A stretch of DNA of 58,841 nucleotides from an uncultured Lachnospiraceae bacterium. GTDB lineage: Bacteria; Bacillota; Clostridia; Lachnospirales; Lachnospiraceae. Of the stretch, positions 1-58,841 are shown piece after piece (position 1 is the first letter of the stretch; every line of letters begins with the position of its first letter). The translations under genes and the position numbers were made by a program. Location of the stretch: positions 1-58,841 of the forward strand of contig CAMWCA010000016.1 in assembly GCA_947172705.1 (NCBI GenBank), in the 5' to 3' direction. The notes under the pieces were generated by a model. That model ran no database searches. It was given only the letters and a program-made list of their open reading frames with translations, and had not been told where the DNA came from.

Positions 1-97
1 AGGCTCATCGGAATGCTCCGCACAATGGAAGGCGCACAACTTTTTTGTGCAGATTGCCAGGCGCACTCCGCAGCCAGGGCTTTTGACACCCACATCA
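1..97 (+). repeat. Partial copy (A) of large cruciform intergenic repeat
   Basis: This is the right half of an element seen complete at 57,357-57,597 and as a diverged copy at 51,111-51,326. It starts inside the conserved core motif GAGGCTCATCGGAATGC and runs through the outer arm to the shared end TTTTGACACCCACATCAT. It matches the reverse complement of the left half of the 57-kb copy with few changes. The left half lies outside the window. It is just downstream (by transcription) of the minus-strand gene ending at 115. Confidence 0.85.
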
Positions 98-19973: not shown

Positions 19974-20037
19974 AAAAACCGCCAGCAATTTACTGGCGGC
20001 CACAATACTATTATTTAAGAAAAGGATATTTGGTGGG
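19974..20037 (-). repeat. 64-bp direct repeat, copy 1 (contains terminator)
   Basis: Identical in 59 of 64 positions to 22,374-22,437. On the minus strand it ends with the hairpin CCGCCAGTAAATTGCTGGCGG (19,979-19,999; 7-bp stem) plus a T run, so it terminates the PBECR-like gene. The other copy terminates the DUF4258/YgiT operon. Confidence 0.85.
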
Positions 20038-20111
20038 TGTGCCCCTTCCCACATTTCTTTTGACCCATAGGGTGCGTAGCAGCACAATCTCTACTTCAAA
20101 TATCCTGTTCT
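20018..20111 (-). other. Multi-stem structured sequence 3' of the PBECR-like gene
   Basis: A 15-bp outer stem with one mismatch (AGAAAAGGATATTTG at 20,018-20,032 pairs with CAAATATCCTGTTCT at 20,097-20,111) encloses small hairpins GTGC/GCAC, ACCC/GGGT and GTGGG/CCCAC. It lies between the PBECR-like stop and the terminator. It could be a structured 3' UTR, a small RNA or the trace of a mobile element end. Confidence 0.45.
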
Positions 20112-22373: not shown

Positions 22374-22437
22374 AAAAACCGCCAGCAATTTACTGACGGT
22401 CACAATACTATTATGAAAGAAAAGGATATTTGATGGG
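22374..22437 (-). repeat. 64-bp direct repeat, copy 2 (contains terminator)
   Basis: Second copy of the sequence at 19,974-20,037, five mismatches in 64. It starts 14 bp after the YgiT stop and ends in the hairpin at 22,379-22,399 plus a T run on the minus strand. The intron begins immediately after the T run. Confidence 0.85.
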
Positions 22438-22450
22438 TCGTTTTATTGCA

Positions 22451-51110: not shown

Positions 51111-51326
51111 GTCAAAAATCCTGGTGCATGGGAGCGGCTGGGGGAGCCTGGGGAAGCGTTTGAAGGAACGACTTTTGCACCATGGAGATGAGACTCAAAA
51201 ATCGTGGAAGCCGCTGCTGACACGATTTTAGCTTTAAGAGGCTCATCGGAATGCCCGGTGCAACGGAGCGACGCCGAACGCTTCCCCAGGCTCCCCCAGC
51301 CGCTCCCATGCACCAGGATTTTTGAC
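51111..51326. repeat. Large cruciform intergenic repeat, copy B
   Basis: 216 bp between csoR and copA. The outer arms 51,111-51,160 and 51,277-51,326 are perfect 50-bp inverted repeats starting GTCAAAAATCCTGGTGCATG. The inner core (51,161-51,276) holds nested stems TTGCACC/GGTGCAA, GATGAGACTC/GAGGCTCATC and AAAATCGTG/CACGATTTT. The core is shared with the copies at 57,357-57,597 and 1-97; the arms are not. Confidence 0.95.
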
Positions 51327-51382
51327 TCCTGAAATTATAAGTTATCTCTTTTTTTTATATGGAAGAAATGATTTATCCGTTT

Positions 51383-51709
51383 TTATTTTAGCTTTTTTAC
51401 TAATTCAATTACTTCTTCCATTATTTCATTATTGCCGTTTAAGATTTCCTCTATTACGCAGGTCTCCATATGTTCCTGTAAGATGATGTAAGCGAAGCTC
51501 TGCAGGGCGCTTTCTACGGCGGCTACCTGGGTAAGGATATCGCCGCAGTAGCGGTTTTCTTCCAGCATTCTGCCGATTCCGTTTAGCTGTCCTGTGATGC
51601 GGTTTAAGCGATTTTGGAGCTGCTTTAGCTGGGCTTCGCTTCTGGGCGTATGTTTGGTGTGGCAGGCACACTCTGAATTTTCCATGAGTTCTTTGTTCTC
51701 TTGCTGCAT
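51383..51709 (-). CDS. csoR: CsoR copper-sensing repressor
   Basis: 108-aa CsoR/RcnR-family helical repressor. The Cu(I) ligands are in place: Cys55 (RYCGDIL), His80 and Cys84 (EHMETC). The N-terminal extension with CACHTKH is extra. ATG 51,709 has AGGAG six bases upstream. It should bind the two operators at 51,733-51,779 and release on copper, turning on itself and copA. The 342-bp gap to copA holds the cruciform element and no clear second promoter. Confidence 0.95.
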   Translation of the reverse strand: MQQENKELMENSECACHTKHTPRSEAQLKQLQNRLNRITGQLNGIGRMLEENRYCGDILTQVAAVESALQSFAYIILQEHMETCVIEEILNGNNEIMEEVIELVKKLK

Positions 51710-51732
51710 CACGCTCTCCTCTCTGTTTTTGT

Positions 51733-51786
51733 ATACCCTACGGGGGTATTTTTTATTATATTATACCCCTATGGGGTATATGTCAA
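51733..51786 (-). promoter_or_regulatory. csoR promoter with two CsoR operators
   Basis: Two GC-box inverted repeats: ATACCCTACGGGGGTAT (51,733-51,749) and the perfect palindrome ATACCCCTATGGGGTAT (51,763-51,779). The minus-strand -35 TTGACA (51,781-51,786) and the TATAATATAAT -10 region (about 51,755-51,765) enclose the second operator, so repressor binding blocks RNA polymerase directly. Confidence 0.9.
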
Positions 51787-51795
51787 GTGGTACGA

Positions 51796-53100
51796 TTATT
51801 TTTCCATACTCCCAGGATCAAGCAGGAAATCATAAATACTCAATGTCAAAATACCGTATTCATCGTAATAGGGTTTCACAATATCTTTCGTTACAATGAT
51901 TTTTTTGAAAGAATCATCAATTTTTCTGAACGGTCGTATTTCCTCCATTCTTTTTGCCTCGTCAGGTATGGCGTATGCCGACTGAATGTAATATCTCGCC
52001 GAGGCAAGATTACATATAAAATCTACTTCAAGCTGTTTGCGTATTACTTTTCCTTTCCGGTCTTTTTCCGCTATCGGTACGATACCTACATCCACACCAT
52101 AGCCCCGCATACGAAGTTCGTTGTAAATTACGTTTTCCATGGAATGCGTCTGTTCGAACTGGCGAAAATTAATGCGGGCATTGCGGAGCCCTAAATCCGA
52201 AAAATAATATTTTTTCGGAGTTTCTATATATGCCTTTCCTTTAATGTCATATCGCTGGGCAGACTCGATCAAAAACGAATCTTCAAAACAATCAAGATAT
52301 CTCTTAATTGTGTTTGAAGTGATGTTGGATTTTTTCATGGTTTTGAAAGTATTTTTCAGTTTTTCAGGGTTTGTCAGAGATCCAATAGATGAGGACAGGA
52401 TGTTAAGCAAATCCTCAAGTTCCCCCTGATTTCTTATTCTATTTCTCTGATAAATATCCCTGATATAAATTTCAGTAAATAAATTTTCAAGTGCCGCCGC
52501 TTTTTCATTCATTCCATTGCGAAGAACGATCAGTGGAATCCCCCCATAGATCATATACTCTGACAGCCCTTCATATTTATCGCCTTTATAAACGGACATA
52601 AATTCGGTAAAGCTTAATGGATACATATGAATTTCATCGCCCCGCCCTGCAAATTCCGTAATAATGTCTTTAGATAAAAATTTTGCATTGCTTCCGGTCA
52701 CATATACATCCATATTTTCTTTCCTGAGATACCCATTTAGCACCGCTTCAAAGCAGTCAAGCATCTGAACCTCGTCCAACAGGAGATAGTACATACCTCT
52801 GTCCGTCATTTTTGAGCGAATATATGACATAAATTTTTCCGGATCAACTCGTTTTTTTCCCTTTTGCATTTTTATAAGACTTTCCCCTAGCAGGTAAAGA
52901 TCATCCGCGGAGTCAAAAGCAAAACGTATAATATGACTTTCATCCACACCGCTTTCAAGAAGATGATTATAAAAGATGGTATTGAGCAAATACGATTTAC
53001 CACACCTGCGAATACCGGTTATAACCTTAATCAGACCATTGTTCTTTCTGCTGATTAGTTTATCCAGATAAAAATCACGCTTAATCTCCATATTTTTCAC
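51796..53100 (-). CDS. ATP-binding protein, AAA + DUF4143
   Basis: 434-aa ATPase of the archaeal-ATPase-like group: Walker A GIRRCGKSYLL (about 28-38), Walker B LLLDEVQML, sensor GSNAKFLS, and a C-terminal DUF4143 domain (KKYYFSDLGLRNARIN, LEVDFIC). Such genes are frequent single-gene accessory units in gut Firmicutes and their role is unknown; the nuclease-like end (E-V-D-F) suggests a link to DNA or defence. It is AT-rich compared with the csoR-copA side. Confidence 0.85.
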   Translation of the reverse strand: MKNMEIKRDFYLDKLISRKNNGLIKVITGIRRCGKSYLLNTIFYNHLLESGVDESHIIRFAFDSADDLYLLGESLIKMQKGKKRVDPEKFMSYIRSKMTDRGMYYLLLDEVQMLDCFEAVLNGYLRKENMDVYVTGSNAKFLSKDIITEFAGRGDEIHMYPLSFTEFMSVYKGDKYEGLSEYMIYGGIPLIVLRNGMNEKAAALENLFTEIYIRDIYQRNRIRNQGELEDLLNILSSSIGSLTNPEKLKNTFKTMKKSNITSNTIKRYLDCFEDSFLIESAQRYDIKGKAYIETPKKYYFSDLGLRNARINFRQFEQTHSMENVIYNELRMRGYGVDVGIVPIAEKDRKGKVIRKQLEVDFICNLASARYYIQSAYAIPDEAKRMEEIRPFRKIDDSFKKIIVTKDIVKPYYDEYGILTLSIYDFLLDPGSMEK

Positions 53101-53271
53101 TCCTTAGCGAAAGATTTTTGCAACTTTTTACTGTTTTCATCTATAAATTACCATAAAATGATGAAAATATCAATTTACTTTACGTATGAAAGAAACTTTT
53201 TCAATTTTGTAAAAATGATGTATAATAGAGCCATCCATAAATCTACATAAAAACTGAAAAGGGGATTTTTT

Positions 53272-53850
53272 ATGCCTGTAAGACCTATTTTAGACAAAAA
53301 TCTGGACAGTAAAACATTTCGTGATTTCTATTATTTAAAAGAAGAGTTAGTGGACTTTTGCAGGGAAAACGATCTGCCCGTTTCCGGCGGGAAATTAGAA
53401 ATAACAGACAGAATCGCTTATTTTCTTGATACAGGCAAGGTATTGCCTGCCTCTAAAGTAAAGAAAAAAGCGGCTGCTCCCTCTCCCGTTATGATCACTG
53501 AAGATGCTGAAATCGAAGCTGATTTTGTCTGCTCAGAAAAGCACAGAGCTTTTTTTAAAGAGCAGATTGGAAACGGCTTTTCTTTCAATGTGGCTTTTCA
53601 AAAATGGCTTAAAACGAATACCGGAAAGACTTATAAAGAAGCGGTTGCCGCTTATTATGAAATTCTTGAAGAAAAGAAAAAAGGAAAAACCAAAATTGAC
53701 AGGCAGTTTGAATACAATACTTATATCCGGGATTTTTTTGAGGATAATCAGGGAAAAACTTTAGATGAGGCAATTAAATGTTGGAAGTACAAAAAGCAAT
53801 TACAGGGGCACAATCGCTATGAACGGTCGGATCTTACGGTTTTGGGCTGA
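53272..53850 (+). CDS. SAP-like/DUF6434 domain protein
   Basis: 192-aa basic protein. Residues 1-60 form a SAP-like helix-extension-helix (KTFRDFYYLKEELVDFCREN, GGKLEITDRIAYFLDTG), often DNA-binding. The C-terminal 110 residues (FFKEQIGNGFSFNVAFQKWL, then FFEDNQGKTLDEAIKCWKYK) look like two related helical repeats matching the DUF6434 type. AAAGGGG lies upstream of the start and TATAAT at 53,221. Function unknown. Confidence 0.8.
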   Translation: MPVRPILDKNLDSKTFRDFYYLKEELVDFCRENDLPVSGGKLEITDRIAYFLDTGKVLPASKVKKKAAAPSPVMITEDAEIEADFVCSEKHRAFFKEQIGNGFSFNVAFQKWLKTNTGKTYKEAVAAYYEILEEKKKGKTKIDRQFEYNTYIRDFFEDNQGKTLDEAIKCWKYKKQLQGHNRYERSDLTVLG

Positions 53851-53878
53851 TATTCTGCCCCAAAGGAGCAGGCGGTAT

Positions 53879-55081
53879 GTGATCCGCCACGCTGTTTTAG
53901 CGCTTCTGCCTGTCATAATTGTTCTCACAGGCTGCCAAAATAATATGCAAATGGAATCCTCCTGGACTGCCCGGGATGTGAAAGCTGATGATGATGCCCG
54001 GGAGGAAGAGCCTTCAGCTGGTCCAAAAGCTTTGGATGACAGGGAGATTTATGAGAATTTCCTGGACGGAAGACTTACAACAGAATTGGAAGAACGCCAT
54101 GTTTATATTGACGAATTATTTTGGAGCAATGATATTGCATACTGTTTTTGGGACATAGACGGCGACGGCTGTGATGAATTGCATGTGAGGGACAATACCA
54201 TATATTATGCAGTAAAAGTACAGGATGAAATACCCAGGATTATTTTTGAAGGCTGGTGGCACTATGAGCCTGTCGCCGCTGACGGGTTATGCGGTATTTT
54301 GCATTCCTCCTCCCAGTACGGGTCCGGAGATCTTGAGTTTATCAAGATGAATGCCGACGGCAGTCAGAAGAGCGATGGCTGGATGCACTGGTCTGACCAG
54401 AATAAAAACGGAATGATCGACGGGGAAGATTCCTTTATTGGCTGTGAAAATGCAGATCAGTATTTTCAATTTTTGAACCAGTATACTGCAATGCAGGCAA
54501 AAAGCAAGCTGAAATGGATAAACATACGATTAAAGCATTTTGATACCTGGCAGGAAGCATACGTTGATTTTATTCAAAAGCTTCACATTACGATACCATT
54601 ACCCGAACCTGAATTTAAATATTTACTTATTTATGTGGATGCCGACTACATTCCCGAGCTCTATATTGATACCGGAGGAATGGCAAGCGGAGAGCTTATC
54701 GTTTCTTTCTATAACGGAAAGGTGCGTGCCCTGAACCGCGGTCGGGTGGGAATACAGTATCTCAAGCACAGCGGACTGCTCTACGGCGGAACCGGTGCAA
54801 TGGGCTTTTATCCCAGCAATGTCTATCAGCTTGAAAAAGGAGAATTTTCGGAAATCGGAACAGGATGGTATACTGACGGTATTGACGATCAGGGAAATAT
54901 GTACTTTGAATATTACTGGGAAGACCTTCCTGTAACTGAGGAGCAGTTTGAAGCGTCCATTAACGAACTGATCGACACCTCAAAATGTGTTATGCCTGAC
55001 ATGCTCGATTCCATGCTCTATTCAGAAGACGAGATCCTGGCAATATTAAATGTTACCCCAAATGAAAGGTTGAATAAATGA
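53879..55081 (+). CDS. Lipoprotein with Asp-rich calcium-loop-like motifs
   Basis: 400-aa predicted lipoprotein. The start is GTG 53,879 with AAAGGAG ten bases upstream, giving a compact signal peptide and lipobox VLTGC; longer frames from 53,765 overlap the SAP gene and bury the signal. Two segments, DIDGDGCDE and DQNKNGMIDGED, resemble dockerin/EF-hand calcium loops. The rest is unrecognised. Its stop overlaps the UgtP-like start (ATGA), so it belongs to the lipid operon and may act on the cell surface. Confidence 0.75.
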   Translation: MIRHAVLALLPVIIVLTGCQNNMQMESSWTARDVKADDDAREEEPSAGPKALDDREIYENFLDGRLTTELEERHVYIDELFWSNDIAYCFWDIDGDGCDELHVRDNTIYYAVKVQDEIPRIIFEGWWHYEPVAADGLCGILHSSSQYGSGDLEFIKMNADGSQKSDGWMHWSDQNKNGMIDGEDSFIGCENADQYFQFLNQYTAMQAKSKLKWINIRLKHFDTWQEAYVDFIQKLHITIPLPEPEFKYLLIYVDADYIPELYIDTGGMASGELIVSFYNGKVRALNRGRVGIQYLKHSGLLYGGTGAMGFYPSNVYQLEKGEFSEIGTGWYTDGIDDQGNMYFEYYWEDLPVTEEQFEASINELIDTSKCVMPDMLDSMLYSEDEILAILNVTPNERLNK

Positions 55082-56238
55082 AAATACTGATATTATCCTG
55101 CAGCACCGGCGGCGGTCACAACGCTGCCGCCATGGCAGTAAAAGAACGGCTTGAATATGAAGGTCATGAAGCGGTTATACTGGACCCCTTTTGGTTATCC
55201 GGCGAGCGTACCGCCGCCATGGTAGGGAATTGTTATATTAACATCGCCAAATATCTTCCCAATTTTTTTGGCTTTCTGTACAGGCTGGGCGCATCGATCA
55301 GCTCATCCAGGCATAAATCCCCCGTTTATTATGCCAATTCCCTTATGACAAAGCATCTGAAAAATTATCTGGCGGAGCACAAATTTGACGCCATTGTAAC
55401 CACTCATTTATATCCTGCTGAAATGCTCACCTGCATGAAGCGCAGAAAGCTGGAGGTTCCCCCTTCTGTTGCAGTCGCCACCGACTACACCTGTATCCCT
55501 TTCTGGGAGGAAACAGAATGTGACTATTACATTCTTCCTCATCAGGAGCTTGCAGAGGAAAATATCGCCCGGGGGCTTCCTGAAGATAAGCTTCATCCTC
55601 TGGGCATTCCCGTTGGCATGGCTTTTTCAACGAAGCCGGACAAACGCAGGGCAAAGGCAAAGCTGCACCTGCCTGCCGACAAGCCTGTGTTCCTGGTTAT
55701 GAGCGGCAGCATGGGCTTTGGAAAAATGCACCTGTTCGTATTTGAACTTACCAGAAAACTCACAGAGGGCGAACAGCTGATCATCATCTGCGGCAATAAC
55801 CGGAAAATGTACCGCATTCTGAAGCGTACCTACAAGAAGAATGAAAATGTCCATATTACGGGCTATACCGACCATGTATCCGAATATATGGACGCCAGCG
55901 ACATTATTTTTACTAAACCGGGCGGGCTTACCTCCACAGAGGCGCTTGTGAAAAATATTCCCATTGTCCACACCGCGGCAATTCCCGGCTGCGAGACCTG
56001 CAACAGAGATTTCTTTGTCTCCAGAGGGCTTTCCCTTGCCTCCGGGCATGTGCACACCCAGATTTCTCAGGGCATTACCCTGGTGAAAAATGAGGAAATA
56101 CGCCGGGCAATGATCTTCACCCAAAAAAGATATGCCCATCCCAATGCAAGCGCGGAGCTCGTTCAGCTTCTTACACAGCTTACAGCAAAAAACGGCGCAG
56201 ATTGCCACAGGCAGTCAGAAAAGGAAAAAACTTTATGA
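55078..56238 (+). CDS. Processive diacylglycerol glycosyltransferase (UgtP/MGDG synthase-like)
   Basis: 386-aa GT28-type glycosyltransferase. The N-terminal acceptor domain has SCSTGGGHNAAA (8-19) and the MGDG-synthase pattern. The C-terminal donor domain has VMSGSMGFGKM, ICGNNRKM, ITGYTDHVSEYMDASD and TKPGGLTSTEAL. It should add glucose or galactose to diacylglycerol at the inner membrane face, making glycolipids or lipoteichoic acid anchors. It is coupled to the lipoprotein gene and to the PlsY-like gene by 4-bp overlaps. Confidence 0.9.
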   Translation: MKILILSCSTGGGHNAAAMAVKERLEYEGHEAVILDPFWLSGERTAAMVGNCYINIAKYLPNFFGFLYRLGASISSSRHKSPVYYANSLMTKHLKNYLAEHKFDAIVTTHLYPAEMLTCMKRRKLEVPPSVAVATDYTCIPFWEETECDYYILPHQELAEENIARGLPEDKLHPLGIPVGMAFSTKPDKRRAKAKLHLPADKPVFLVMSGSMGFGKMHLFVFELTRKLTEGEQLIIICGNNRKMYRILKRTYKKNENVHITGYTDHVSEYMDASDIIFTKPGGLTSTEALVKNIPIVHTAAIPGCETCNRDFFVSRGLSLASGHVHTQISQGITLVKNEEIRRAMIFTQKRYAHPNASAELVQLLTQLTAKNGADCHRQSEKEKTL

Positions 56239-56867
56239 AAACTCTCTTATGGATACCCTATCTGTTCTGGACCCTTGTCGGTTATCTCTCCGGCAGTGTC
56301 CTCTACGGCTATTTGATTCCCAAATACTTTTATCACGTCGATGTGCGTCTTCTCAGCGACGATGGAAATCCCGGCACGGCAAACGCCTACAAGTATGCCG
56401 GATTCTGGGCGGGAAGCACTGTGATTTTATGCGAACTTTTAAAGGCATTTCTTCCCGTCTACTTTGCTGCCCGCAGAGTTGATCCCACAGTGCTTCCCTT
56501 TGCATTTGTGATCGCCGCGCCGGTTGCCGGACACGCTTTTTCCCTTTTCTTCAAAGGAAAAGGAGGCAAAGCAATCGCCGCCTCCTTTGGTGCAGTGCTT
56601 GCGCTGTTTCCCAATCTTTTCCCTTTTGCCGCGCTTGCCCTGTTTTACATTTTATTTTCCACGGTGATCGTTGTTTCTCCTCACCTGTTCCGCTCCATTG
56701 TAACTTTTCTCCTTTTTACAGCGGCGGTTCTGGTGAAGGTTACTGTTCCTTCCGTCCGTTTAGGTTGTACGTTGATTACGGCAATCACCGTAAAAAAACA
56801 TCTGGACAGCTATCAGGGCGAAGCTTTTAAAATCCGCCTGGGACGTCATCACAGAACCTCCGGTTAA
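56235..56867 (+). CDS. plsY: PlsY-like glycerol-3-phosphate acyltransferase
   Basis: 210-aa membrane protein with about five to six helices. The three PlsY motifs are visible: SGSVLYGYLI near the N terminus, DDGNPGTANAYKYAG, and GHAFSLFFKGKGGKAIAASFG. It makes lysophosphatidic acid from acyl-phosphate. Compared with classical PlsY the first motif is relaxed, so it may be a paralogue serving the glycolipid operon. The start is ATG 56,235, overlapping the glycosyltransferase stop. Confidence 0.85.
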   Translation: MKTLLWIPYLFWTLVGYLSGSVLYGYLIPKYFYHVDVRLLSDDGNPGTANAYKYAGFWAGSTVILCELLKAFLPVYFAARRVDPTVLPFAFVIAAPVAGHAFSLFFKGKGGKAIAASFGAVLALFPNLFPFAALALFYILFSTVIVVSPHLFRSIVTFLLFTAAVLVKVTVPSVRLGCTLITAITVKKHLDSYQGEAFKIRLGRHHRTSG

Positions 56868-56872
56868 TGCGC

Positions 56873-57319
56873 TCAGCCCAGCATTTCCCCTACGATCTGG
56901 TTCACCAGGCTGCCGTCCGCTTTTCCTTTTACCCGGGGCATAAGTTCTTTCATCACCCTGCCTTTGTCCTTTGCGGAAGGCTCCGTAATGCCAAGGGTAT
57001 CGAACACTTCCTTCACCTGGGCACGGATCGCCTCAGGGCTCATCTCCTCAGGGGCAAAGTCCTGATAAACGGCAAGTCTCAGTTTACATGCCTCGATAAT
57101 ATCCGTCCTGTCCTGGGGCGCTGATTCCATGGTTTCTTTGGTCTGCCTGATCTCCCTTTTTACCACCTCGTACTCTTCCGCTTCCGTCAAGTCGGCACGC
57201 TTGTCGATTGCCTTGTTTTTCAATGCGGAAAGCAGCATGGAAAGAGCGTCCTTTCTGTCTTTATCCTTGCTTTTCATTGCCTCCATCATCTGGGAACGTA
57301 CCGTATCGATCATACTCAT
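56873..57319 (-). CDS. yqeY: GatB/YqeY domain protein
   Basis: 148-aa helical protein of the YqeY family, related to the tail of GatB and thought to act on tRNA-linked steps. MSMIDTVRSQMMEAMKSKDK and the C-terminal GRVMKELMPRVKGKADGSLV are typical. ATG 57,319 (or 57,325) has AGGAAGAG upstream. The frame remains open upstream to 57,490, but that part is the cruciform repeat and is not coding. It converges with the lipid operon. Confidence 0.9.
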   Translation of the reverse strand: MSMIDTVRSQMMEAMKSKDKDRKDALSMLLSALKNKAIDKRADLTEAEEYEVVKREIRQTKETMESAPQDRTDIIEACKLRLAVYQDFAPEEMSPEAIRAQVKEVFDTLGITEPSAKDKGRVMKELMPRVKGKADGSLVNQIVGEMLG

Positions 57320-57356
57320 TTTCATCTCTTCCTTTCTTTTCTTAAAATGATATCTT

Positions 57357-57597
57357 ATGATGTGGGTGTCAAAAGTCCTGGCTGGGGAGTACGCCTGGCA
57401 ATCTGCACAAAAAAGTTGCGCACCTTCCATTGTGCGGAGCACTCCGATGAGCCTCTGAAAACGAAAATCGTGTTCAGCAGAGACTTCCACGATTTTTGAG
57501 TCTCATCTCCGTCGCACAAAAGTCAGTTGCACGAACTCTTTTTGCGCAGATTGCCAGGCGTACTCCCCAGCCAGAGCTTTTGACTCCCACATCATCT
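57357..57597. repeat. Large cruciform intergenic repeat, copy C
   Basis: About 240 bp between holA and yqeY. The outer arms read GATGTGGGTGTCAAAAGTCC from the left and the complementary sequence GACTCCCACATCATC on the right, with few mismatches over about 60 bp. The core, on the minus strand, has GATGAGACTC/GAGGCTCATC, AAAATCGTG/CACGATTTT and TTGTGCG/CGCACAA. It is inverted relative to copies A and B. Confidence 0.95.
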
Positions 57598-57599
57598 TA

Positions 57600-58574
57600 T
57601 CAGTTGCTATACTGAATGATCAGCATCTCTACGCTGATATTGTCGTTCATCCTTCCTGTCTTGATTGCCTCCTCCGCTGCCACACACGCCTCCAGGGCGT
57701 CTCTGATCTCCCGGGTTTTAAATCGGGAAGCCTGGGTCACATATTTTCCCGCGATAAAGCCCGGCAGCCCTACCTTTTCCCCGATCGCTTTATTCTGATA
57801 ACCTTTCCCCGCCAGCTCCTTTACCTGCAAAAGGAGATTAAACTGTCTGGCAATGAGAAACAAGATCCGCATCGGCGGTTCCTTTTGGGCAAGCAGCTCA
57901 TAGTAAAGCTCCAGCGCATGCTTCTGCTTTTTGTCCGCTATGGCGCTGACCATATCAAAAATATGATTGCCGATCCTCTGGGTACAGATCTCTTCAATAT
58001 CTCCTTCTGTGATCGCTTCTTTATCCAGACAGAAACAAAACAGCTTCTCTGTTTCCTTTCGAATATTCTCCATATCCGTTCCGGTTTTTTCAAGGAGATA
58101 GTTTAATGCAGATTCCGAAATTTTCTTATTTTCTTTCTTTACCATTCCCAGTATCCACTTTTTCAGGGTGGTTTCATCCTGAATGCCGAATTCCACCCCG
58201 CAGCCTTTGGAGGAAACGGTCTTATACAGCTTGCTCCTTTTATCCACCTCGGTTTCCACAAAAAGGAAATAAGCAGTTGGAGCCAGCGTTGGGAGATATT
58301 GTGCCAGCTGCTCCCCTCCGCTTTTAAAAAGACCGCTGTTCTCTATGACGATCAGCCTCTTCTCCGCAAAAAAAGGCAGCGTCTCCGCCTGATCGATGAC
58401 CTCTCCCACAGAAATATCCTTCCCCTCATAGTAGTGATAATTCATGGTGTCATCGCCGATGATCGCCTCCTTCAGCCGATCCCTGTACTGCTTTCGCAGA
58501 TAGGCTTCCGCTCCGTAAAGAAGATAAATGTGATTCAGTTCTCCCGTTTTTATATCCTGAACTAACCGCTGCAT
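57600..58574 (-). CDS. holA: DNA polymerase III subunit delta
   Basis: 324-aa clamp-loader subunit. The sequence follows the family: HIYLLYGAEAYLRKQYRDRL at the N terminus, DQAETLPFFAEKRLIVI, a middle domain with FGIQDETTLKKW and the C-terminal ILFLIARQFNLLLQVKEL. It opens the sliding clamp during replication. Its stop lies directly at the edge of the cruciform repeat. The upstream region to the window end carries no gene. Confidence 0.93.
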   Translation of the reverse strand: MQRLVQDIKTGELNHIYLLYGAEAYLRKQYRDRLKEAIIGDDTMNYHYYEGKDISVGEVIDQAETLPFFAEKRLIVIENSGLFKSGGEQLAQYLPTLAPTAYFLFVETEVDKRSKLYKTVSSKGCGVEFGIQDETTLKKWILGMVKKENKKISESALNYLLEKTGTDMENIRKETEKLFCFCLDKEAITEGDIEEICTQRIGNHIFDMVSAIADKKQKHALELYYELLAQKEPPMRILFLIARQFNLLLQVKELAGKGYQNKAIGEKVGLPGFIAGKYVTQASRFKTREIRDALEACVAAEEAIKTGRMNDNISVEMLIIQYSN

Positions 58575-58841
58575 GGCTCTCCTGATTTCTGTATCGCTAT
58601 TCTGGTATTTTTAAGTGCTTTTCACACCTGCGCCGGGGCACGGGATACGGTGTCGGGCAAAAGGAGCGTGGAAGGACACTGCGGAGCACAGCCAATGGGG
58701 CTGGCTATTCCTCATATGGTTTCAGCGCCTTGGCGAGAAATCGGTCATTTCACTTATGGAATGGCAGGATACCCAGGGAGATTCCGCCACGGATGGCGGA
58801 ATCAGGAGTATGCGGCATGGACGCCGCTATACTCCGACCCG
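58575..58841. other. Gene-free end with two strong hairpins
   Basis: No convincing ORF. At 58,778-58,801 a perfect palindrome GATTCCGCCA-CGGA-TGGCGGAATC is followed by a second hairpin GGAGTATGCGGC...GCCGCTATACTCC (58,805-58,835). They may be part of another intergenic repeat or an upstream gene's terminator cut by the window edge. Confidence 0.5.

Follow-up and report, generated by a model that had tools for sequence, protein, structure and literature searches.

How do the two arms of a long DNA hairpin stay complementary when the arms differ from one copy of the element to the next? The question is raised by a 58,841-nt contig (CAMWCA010000016.1, assembly GCA_947172705.1; here called the window) of an uncultured Lachnospiraceae bacterium, in which a first-pass annotation had pointed out three copies, A, B, and C, of a long hairpin repeat with a conserved core and arms that change together. 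As explanations it had offered selection for the folded form, gene conversion between the arms, or a hairpin-dependent mobility process. The data presented here suggest that the copies belong to a hairpin family resembling miniature inverted-repeat transposable elements (MITEs), whose arms are probably kept complementary mainly by arm-to-arm copying in replication, i.e., by template switching, and not by selection for the fold. Among the three options, arm-to-arm copying fits best, and selection does seem to act on the core. Below, G000 denotes the genome to which the window belongs, other G numbers denote genomes of the same genus, and L numbers denote loci.

Both arms of inherited elements change together

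The sites corresponding to 20 G000 elements were located by their flanks in G034, the genome of a sister species, and flank comparison identified eight loci at which both genomes carry an element. We prepared four-arm alignments with hand-set borders for seven of these loci, leaving out L101, whose element is incomplete. Among the 382 arm columns, 245 were identical in all four arms and 80 carried a substitution that differed between the species while both arms agreed in each genome. No column was arm specific (abab) and none showed the abba pattern; 14 had a change in a single arm and 4 were of other types. Gap columns were paired in 30 cases and unpaired in 9, with paired gaps of 6 and about 7 to 8 columns at L095/L116. 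As a rough expectation, independent change would give ∼7 paired and ∼130 single-arm columns. The paired arm change described in the first-pass annotation is thus strongly confirmed. In 14 queries with hand-set arms against a set of 32, the ortholog was the closest arm in 12, which argues against replacement by another family member as a general explanation.

We compared these changes with those in the noncoding flanks of the same loci, which have 1,055 identical positions, 139 transitions, and 118 transversions. Paired substitutions in the arms (80/343; 23%) were statistically indistinguishable in frequency from substitutions in the noncoding flanks (257/1,312; 19.6%; p = 0.13), as was the ratio of transitions to transversions (35/45 in the arms versus 139/118; p = 0.12).

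Paired change was also seen within G000. Eight copies of the same type as copy C (C-type) contained 16 double Watson-Crick changes, compared to 1.24 expected from the single-side rates, along with 28 single-side changes. The double changes lie partly in adjacent runs, with three in L089, two in L086, and two in L088.

The combination of paired, block-wise change at a neutral-like pace with inversion of the spacer (see below) agrees with the expectation for template switching between inverted repeats. In two published reports, template switching is described as causing arm homogenization and spacer inversion (PMC8604942) and as able to create and maintain RNA hairpins (PMC8794818). In the mechanism that we propose, the hairpin would let a nascent strand switch onto the opposite arm, and a mutation in one arm would be either erased or written into both. 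Switching across the spacer would replicate the core in the other direction and occasionally invert it. We infer that the copying takes place at the replication fork and not by RecA-type recombination, two routes that our data do not separate.

Selection appears to act on the core

The main rival explanation is that the elements act as functional RNAs or cruciforms, and that the arms covary through selection for compensatory second changes. Such selection probably applies to the core. In an alignment of 18 cores from G000 (7), the sister genome UBA7093 (5), and four other genomes of the genus (6), the consensus fold has 40 pairs, 23 of which have changes on both sides, and 93.8% of the core cells can pair, compared to 35 to 53% when the partners are slid by 1 to 3 columns. 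Four of five measures of covariation were above all 500 column shuffles, and the number of further pair types was equalled in 51 of the 500. The inner helix GATGAG.CTC/GAG.CTCATC is near-invariant, with eight of its nine pairs unvarying in the 18 sequences. At inherited loci, the core differed at only 30 of 402 positions (7.5%), compared to the 19.6% of the noncoding flanks (p = 1.7e-9). Selection therefore appears to act on the core, which is presumably retained either for a function or for transposition. Some old copies lack the apical hairpin (L102 and L103) or have a second one (L117 to L119). We note that the core variants at L117, L118, L119, L169, and L185 include an additional hairpin resembling AACGCCGGCACGCTTTGCGAGCCGGCTT, located 5′ in some and 3′ in others.

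The arms do not fit this explanation as well. Their rate and substitution mix are indistinguishable from those of the noncoding flanks and include transversions, multibase blocks, and paired gaps, whereas compensatory change mediated by G-U pairs is expected to be slower and rich in transitions. In addition, the 50 perfect pairs in the arms of copy B exceed what RNA folding would need. We therefore consider compensatory selection an unlikely cause of the covariation in the arms.

Base-pair covariation is standard evidence for a functional RNA structure. Since the paired change proceeds at a noncoding-like pace, covariation alone would mislead here, and it is the asymmetric, conserved core alone that points to a function. 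More tentatively, and with less confidence than we place in arm copying itself, the family might be viewed as selfish hairpins whose fold is upheld by mutation and not by selection, with arms that write each change twice and a conserved core that flips, so that an inherited site would act as a slow two-way switch. If this is true, most of the covariation that would normally prove a functional RNA is a by-product of replication.

The core is inverted at some inherited loci in the draft assemblies

Core orientations relative to the flanking genes were compared in 28 rows, some of which rest on one flank; three rows without an orientation were dropped. The strand calls are clear, as the model scores of the two strands, in elements with a score for each, differ widely (for example, 153.8 versus 34.5 bits for one G000 copy). 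Between G000 and G034, the core was in opposite orientation at four of eight loci (L082/L113, L092/L111, L102/L110, and L103/L119) and in the same orientation at the other four (L094/L118, L095/L116, L099/L117, and L101/L112). Between G016 and G007, it was flipped at one of four loci, and the same locus in G005 has the G007 orientation. Given these inversions, the strand that bears the core at a given site may itself be a trait that varies.

Both the core flips and the identity of the arms could in principle be assembly artifacts. The genomes are mostly drafts in many contigs, and several contigs of G000 and G025 end within elements. However, merging of arms by an assembler requires arms that are already nearly identical and cannot create 80 species differences present in both arms, and arm-specific differences survive elsewhere (L166/L176). 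We regard artifacts as a most improbable explanation of the data as a whole; the core flips are more exposed to them than is the identity of the arms.

Mobility and ends of the elements

The C-type elements of G000 have the ends GATGTGGGTGTCAAAAG. Both ends were found in 8 of the 10 copies examined, which measure 235 bp (six copies), 233 bp, and 114 bp, and the flanking 7-mers of these eight copies match as a target duplication at 7/7 positions in five cases, 6/7 in two, and 3/7 in one. The shortest copy, at L211 (932-1046), is a deletion derivative of 114 bp that has kept both ends and a 6/7 target duplication. The comparison of empty and filled sites suggested in the first-pass annotation gave an exact empty site for copy C, as the G034 sequence is uninterrupted and contains a single ATCTTAT. 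The L091 site is likewise uninterrupted in G034, with one substitution in the 7-mer, and the sites of L083 and L088 are also element-free, with small length differences at the junctions. Copy C is thus a recent insertion. The proposal of a hairpin-dependent mobility process holds insofar as C-type elements are mobile; their movement looks like conventional end-repeat transposition with a 7-bp duplication, and nothing in it requires a hairpin route.

We searched the genus for an insertion sequence (IS) with similar ends. The C-type end motif (≤3 mismatches) occurs in 18 of 37 genomes; among 12 such loci inspected, only those in G004 and G029 were IS-like, one in G027 belongs to the hairpin family, and the others resemble chance matches. 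A DNA search for these ends extended the set: in G004, one end is present six times and the other four times, G029 contributes two copies, and G019 has locus L351. At L351, the transposase is split into shorter open reading frames (ORFs); the match to PF05598 (DUF772; E = 5.2e-9) was obtained with the first of them. Apart from this broken-frame copy, every IS copy seen with C-type-like ends is a contig edge. In G004, L358 and L357, which carry the other end, pair with L352 and L355, which carry the first end, through the identical 7-mers ATTAGAT and ATATTAT (compared by eye), as a duplication made by such an IS should look. This IS, which we take to be IS1182-like, thus resembles the C-type elements in its ends (GATGTTGGGGTCAAAAGCCCC against GATGTGGGTGTCAAAAGCCCT) and in the 7-bp duplication of two G004 flank pairs, and it differs from them in that the 235-bp copy C has no transposase gene. 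Given the paired 7-mers and the similar ends, the simplest view is that the C-type is a MITE derived from an IS of this sort, and we infer from these sequence features that its copies were probably moved by a DUF772 transposase encoded by an IS whose ends are of the same kind. L360 (G000:C31:4637-4843) also encodes a DUF772 transposase; its reading frame is open over 534 amino acids (aa), and C-type ends are absent.

Other members have other ends. The high-copy subfamily of G025 (L190 to L206) is a MITE with the ends TAGGTAATTGCGAAAC, has direct repeats of 9 to 13 bp in 9 of 17 copies read, and contains a degenerate form of the same core, so the core is not tied to a single kind of ends. Twelve regions with unpaired ends, one of which had its ORFs listed, did not reveal the mobilizer of this subfamily; the matched ends in these regions were element copies, shortened copies, or contig edges. 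Elements of G003 and G022 have no clear direct repeats, and no direct repeat of ≥4 bp was detected around copy B, whose arms are unique. Terminal inverted repeats common to several copies are therefore a property of the C-type and the G025 type and are not uniform over the whole family.

The small size, end repeats, and 7-bp duplication of the C-type, together with an IS with similar ends, would also fit ordinary IS-derived MITEs whose arms are identical because they were born recently. This is at odds with the old copies present in two species, where the flanks have diverged by 15% and the arms still match each other, yet differ between the species. Recent birth is contradicted at those loci, and independent insertions are unlikely because the flanks are shared. 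As an account of the family, recent birth thus seems very improbable to us.

A further possibility is that each insertion makes its arms anew by fold-back copying of the target DNA. Arms do differ greatly between copies, and at the copy B site of G034 a 31-nt piece of the left arm abuts the outer right arm, with no core between them. This site and that of L084, each with a left arm and a short right arm, could be read as hairpins that preceded insertion. Deletion inside the palindrome explains them equally well, and we read the G034 sites of copy B, L084, and L054, which have only arm pieces and no core, as such deletions. In more distant genomes, the matches at the copy B site end short of the element on both sides. 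Copy C brought its own arms to a site that lacked them, and arms of different copies have outer motifs in common. Fold-back copying accordingly has very little probability in our view.

Where arm copying is weak or absent

Several observations weigh against arm-to-arm copying as a general account of the family and against the mobility and inversion attached to it. Among the 17 G025 copies, 6 paired changes were found versus 2.4 expected, and all 6 fall in the outermost three pairs; because these pairs reach into flanking DNA, the excess lends no support. In two G022/G003 pairs, arm-specific substitution columns outnumber paired ones, by 19 to 2 at L166/L176, whose arms are longer and imperfect, and by 8 to 0 at L156/L170. 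An unfiltered automatic run on 17 of 23 pairs classed 62 substitution columns as paired and 84 as arm specific; columns from the asymmetric border of the core and from some misaligned arms entered these counts. No core flip was seen at 10 G022/G003 loci, where most elements are short-armed, and the flips that were seen rest on draft assemblies, in which arms of ∼30 to 70 bp can confuse an assembler. Against all flanks, which are mostly coding and do not provide a fair neutral comparison, the arms changed faster (p = 2e-4) and with more transversions (p = 1e-6); we no longer claim a transversion excess, as it is not clear against the noncoding flanks. Finally, G000 itself yielded no IS with such ends, and the sole DUF772 match of that genome was rejected as a mobilizer as it lacks C-type ends. 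No C-type end beside a transposase was recognized in eight G000 regions with unpaired end motifs, two of which had their ORFs listed; the eight resemble element copies, contig-edge copies, or lone ends.

The exceptions in G003 and G022 imply that arm copying is not universal and would depend on the length or perfection of the arms. Beyond 55 nt from the center, most G003/G022 elements have ∼8 to 25 paired columns, compared to 43 to 72 in most full G000 copies. Loci with arms of varied length in related species offer a means of testing how arm length and perfection affect the rates of copying and inversion.

Copies in the window and distribution of the family

The three copies in the window lie where the first-pass annotation had placed them, with the borders of copy C corrected to 57359-57593 (Table 1). 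Copy A resembles copy C at 89% identity over 62 nt and has the end motif at 77-96 with 0 mismatches. The outer arms of copy B (51111-51160 and 51277-51326) are complementary at 50 of 50 positions, as had been stated, and those of copy C (57357-57413 and 57539-57595; 57 nt) are 93% complementary. The arms of B and C had been called nearly unrelated; both in fact start with GTCAAAA.TCCTGG, so they are not wholly unrelated, and many arms across the family have an outer end like CAAAAGCCC in common (read by eye). The predicted folds have energies of −160.1 kcal/mol for copy B (z = −17.3) and −142.3 kcal/mol for copy C (z = −16.2), and for neither copy were any of 200 dinucleotide shuffles equally good. 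In an inverted-repeat search, B and C were the sole inverted repeats of the window with arms of >24 nt located ≤400 nt apart. The window's ORF list shows no ORF of ≥100 aa inside either copy; a 205-aa ORF (56873-57490, − strand) extends from the neighboring gene into copy C.

Table 1. Hairpin elements in the window and their associated features
Feature	Position	Strand	Remarks
Copy A, 3′ half of a C-type element, core orientation +	1..96	+	Cut by contig start
Copy B, full hairpin element, core orientation +	51111..51326	+	
Covariance-model core match in copy B	51148..51297	+	136.6 bits, E = 3.6e-37
Left 7-bp target-site duplication of copy C (ATCTTAT)	57352..57358	.	Single copy at the G034 empty site
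Copy C, 235-bp C-type element (MITE-like), core orientation −	57359..57593	−	Absent from G034
Covariance-model core match in copy C	57396..57547	−	146.5 bits, E = 3.3e-40
Right 7-bp target-site duplication of copy C (ATCTTAT)	57594..57600	.	

The family is far larger than these three copies. A core pattern search with ≤3 mismatches gave 16 rows in G000, of which 15 have the core and one, L016, does not. The covariance model of the core, a check proposed in the first-pass annotation, gave 35 rows in G000, corresponding to 25 places and 10 opposite-strand echoes, with copies cut by contig ends in addition. Among the matches listed, 16 of the 37 genomes of the genus, including G000, matched the model at an E value of 0.01, with row counts that include opposite-strand echoes; 100 regions of relatives were taken from these matches, including 17 places from G025, which has at least 47 rows. 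One exact 20-mer of the core was found in six stretches of a genome collection, four of them in Lachnospiraceae bacterium UBA7093 and two without the rest of the core. Beyond the genus, a pattern search covered 24 genomes from other families of the order; it found no convincing element, and three rows look like chance. Viral contigs had no exact match to two core patterns.

All 25 elements of G000 are intergenic, and two overlap the end of an ORF by a few bases. With respect to ORFs of ≥80 aa, 15 lie between codirectional genes, 6 between convergent genes, and 3 between divergent genes, with 1 undetermined. A 125-aa ORF that spans L092 is probably spurious. As judged from this predicted gene context, the data are compatible with the earlier view that the elements are not ordinary terminators.

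Relation to known systems

REP/RAYT, ERIC, and RUP repeats are multicopy intergenic palindromes like the present family, which is larger and has a different sequence. No family of Rfam release 15 matches the elements at the gathering cutoff; two plant microRNA families that matched two hairpins below threshold, far under their own cutoffs, were rejected. The statement that the layout belongs to no named family therefore holds for this Rfam release, while the likeness of the ends to those of an IS partly bears out the alternative that the annotation itself had raised, an IS-derived MITE.

Template switching and MITEs are already known. Bacterial MITEs, as described in a review (PMC10969869), resemble the present elements in being short, multicopy, and intergenic and in having end repeats and a target duplication; the similar ends of an IS of the genus are a further likeness. 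Unlike what is described there, the present family has a structured core that is conserved across species while the ends and arms differ, and end types with differing direct repeats (7 bp in the G000 C-type, 9 to 13 bp in G025, and none that is clear in G003/G022). The template-switching reports (PMC8604942 and PMC8794818) describe the same arm homogenization, multibase changes, and spacer inversion, but for yeast genes, in which the inverted repeats are short and the inverted spacers a few bases long; here they concern a dispersed bacterial family with arms of ∼30 to 70 bp and a core of ∼100 to 150 nt at inherited loci. In the titles and abstract openings listed by literature searches, we saw no description of this family, nor of dispersed hairpins with a conserved core that combine concerted change of the arms at inherited loci with an inverted core at half of the loci common to two species.

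Other structured RNAs in the window

Two other RNA families were matched in the window. A skipping-rope RNA (RF02924; 62.8 bits) lies at 20025-20104 on the − strand, and a 65-nt stretch that overlaps its edge is repeated 2.4 kb away (19974-20038 and 22374-22438; 92% identical). A TwoAYGGAY RNA (RF01731; 52 bits) at 58730-58841 on the + strand is cut by the end of the window.

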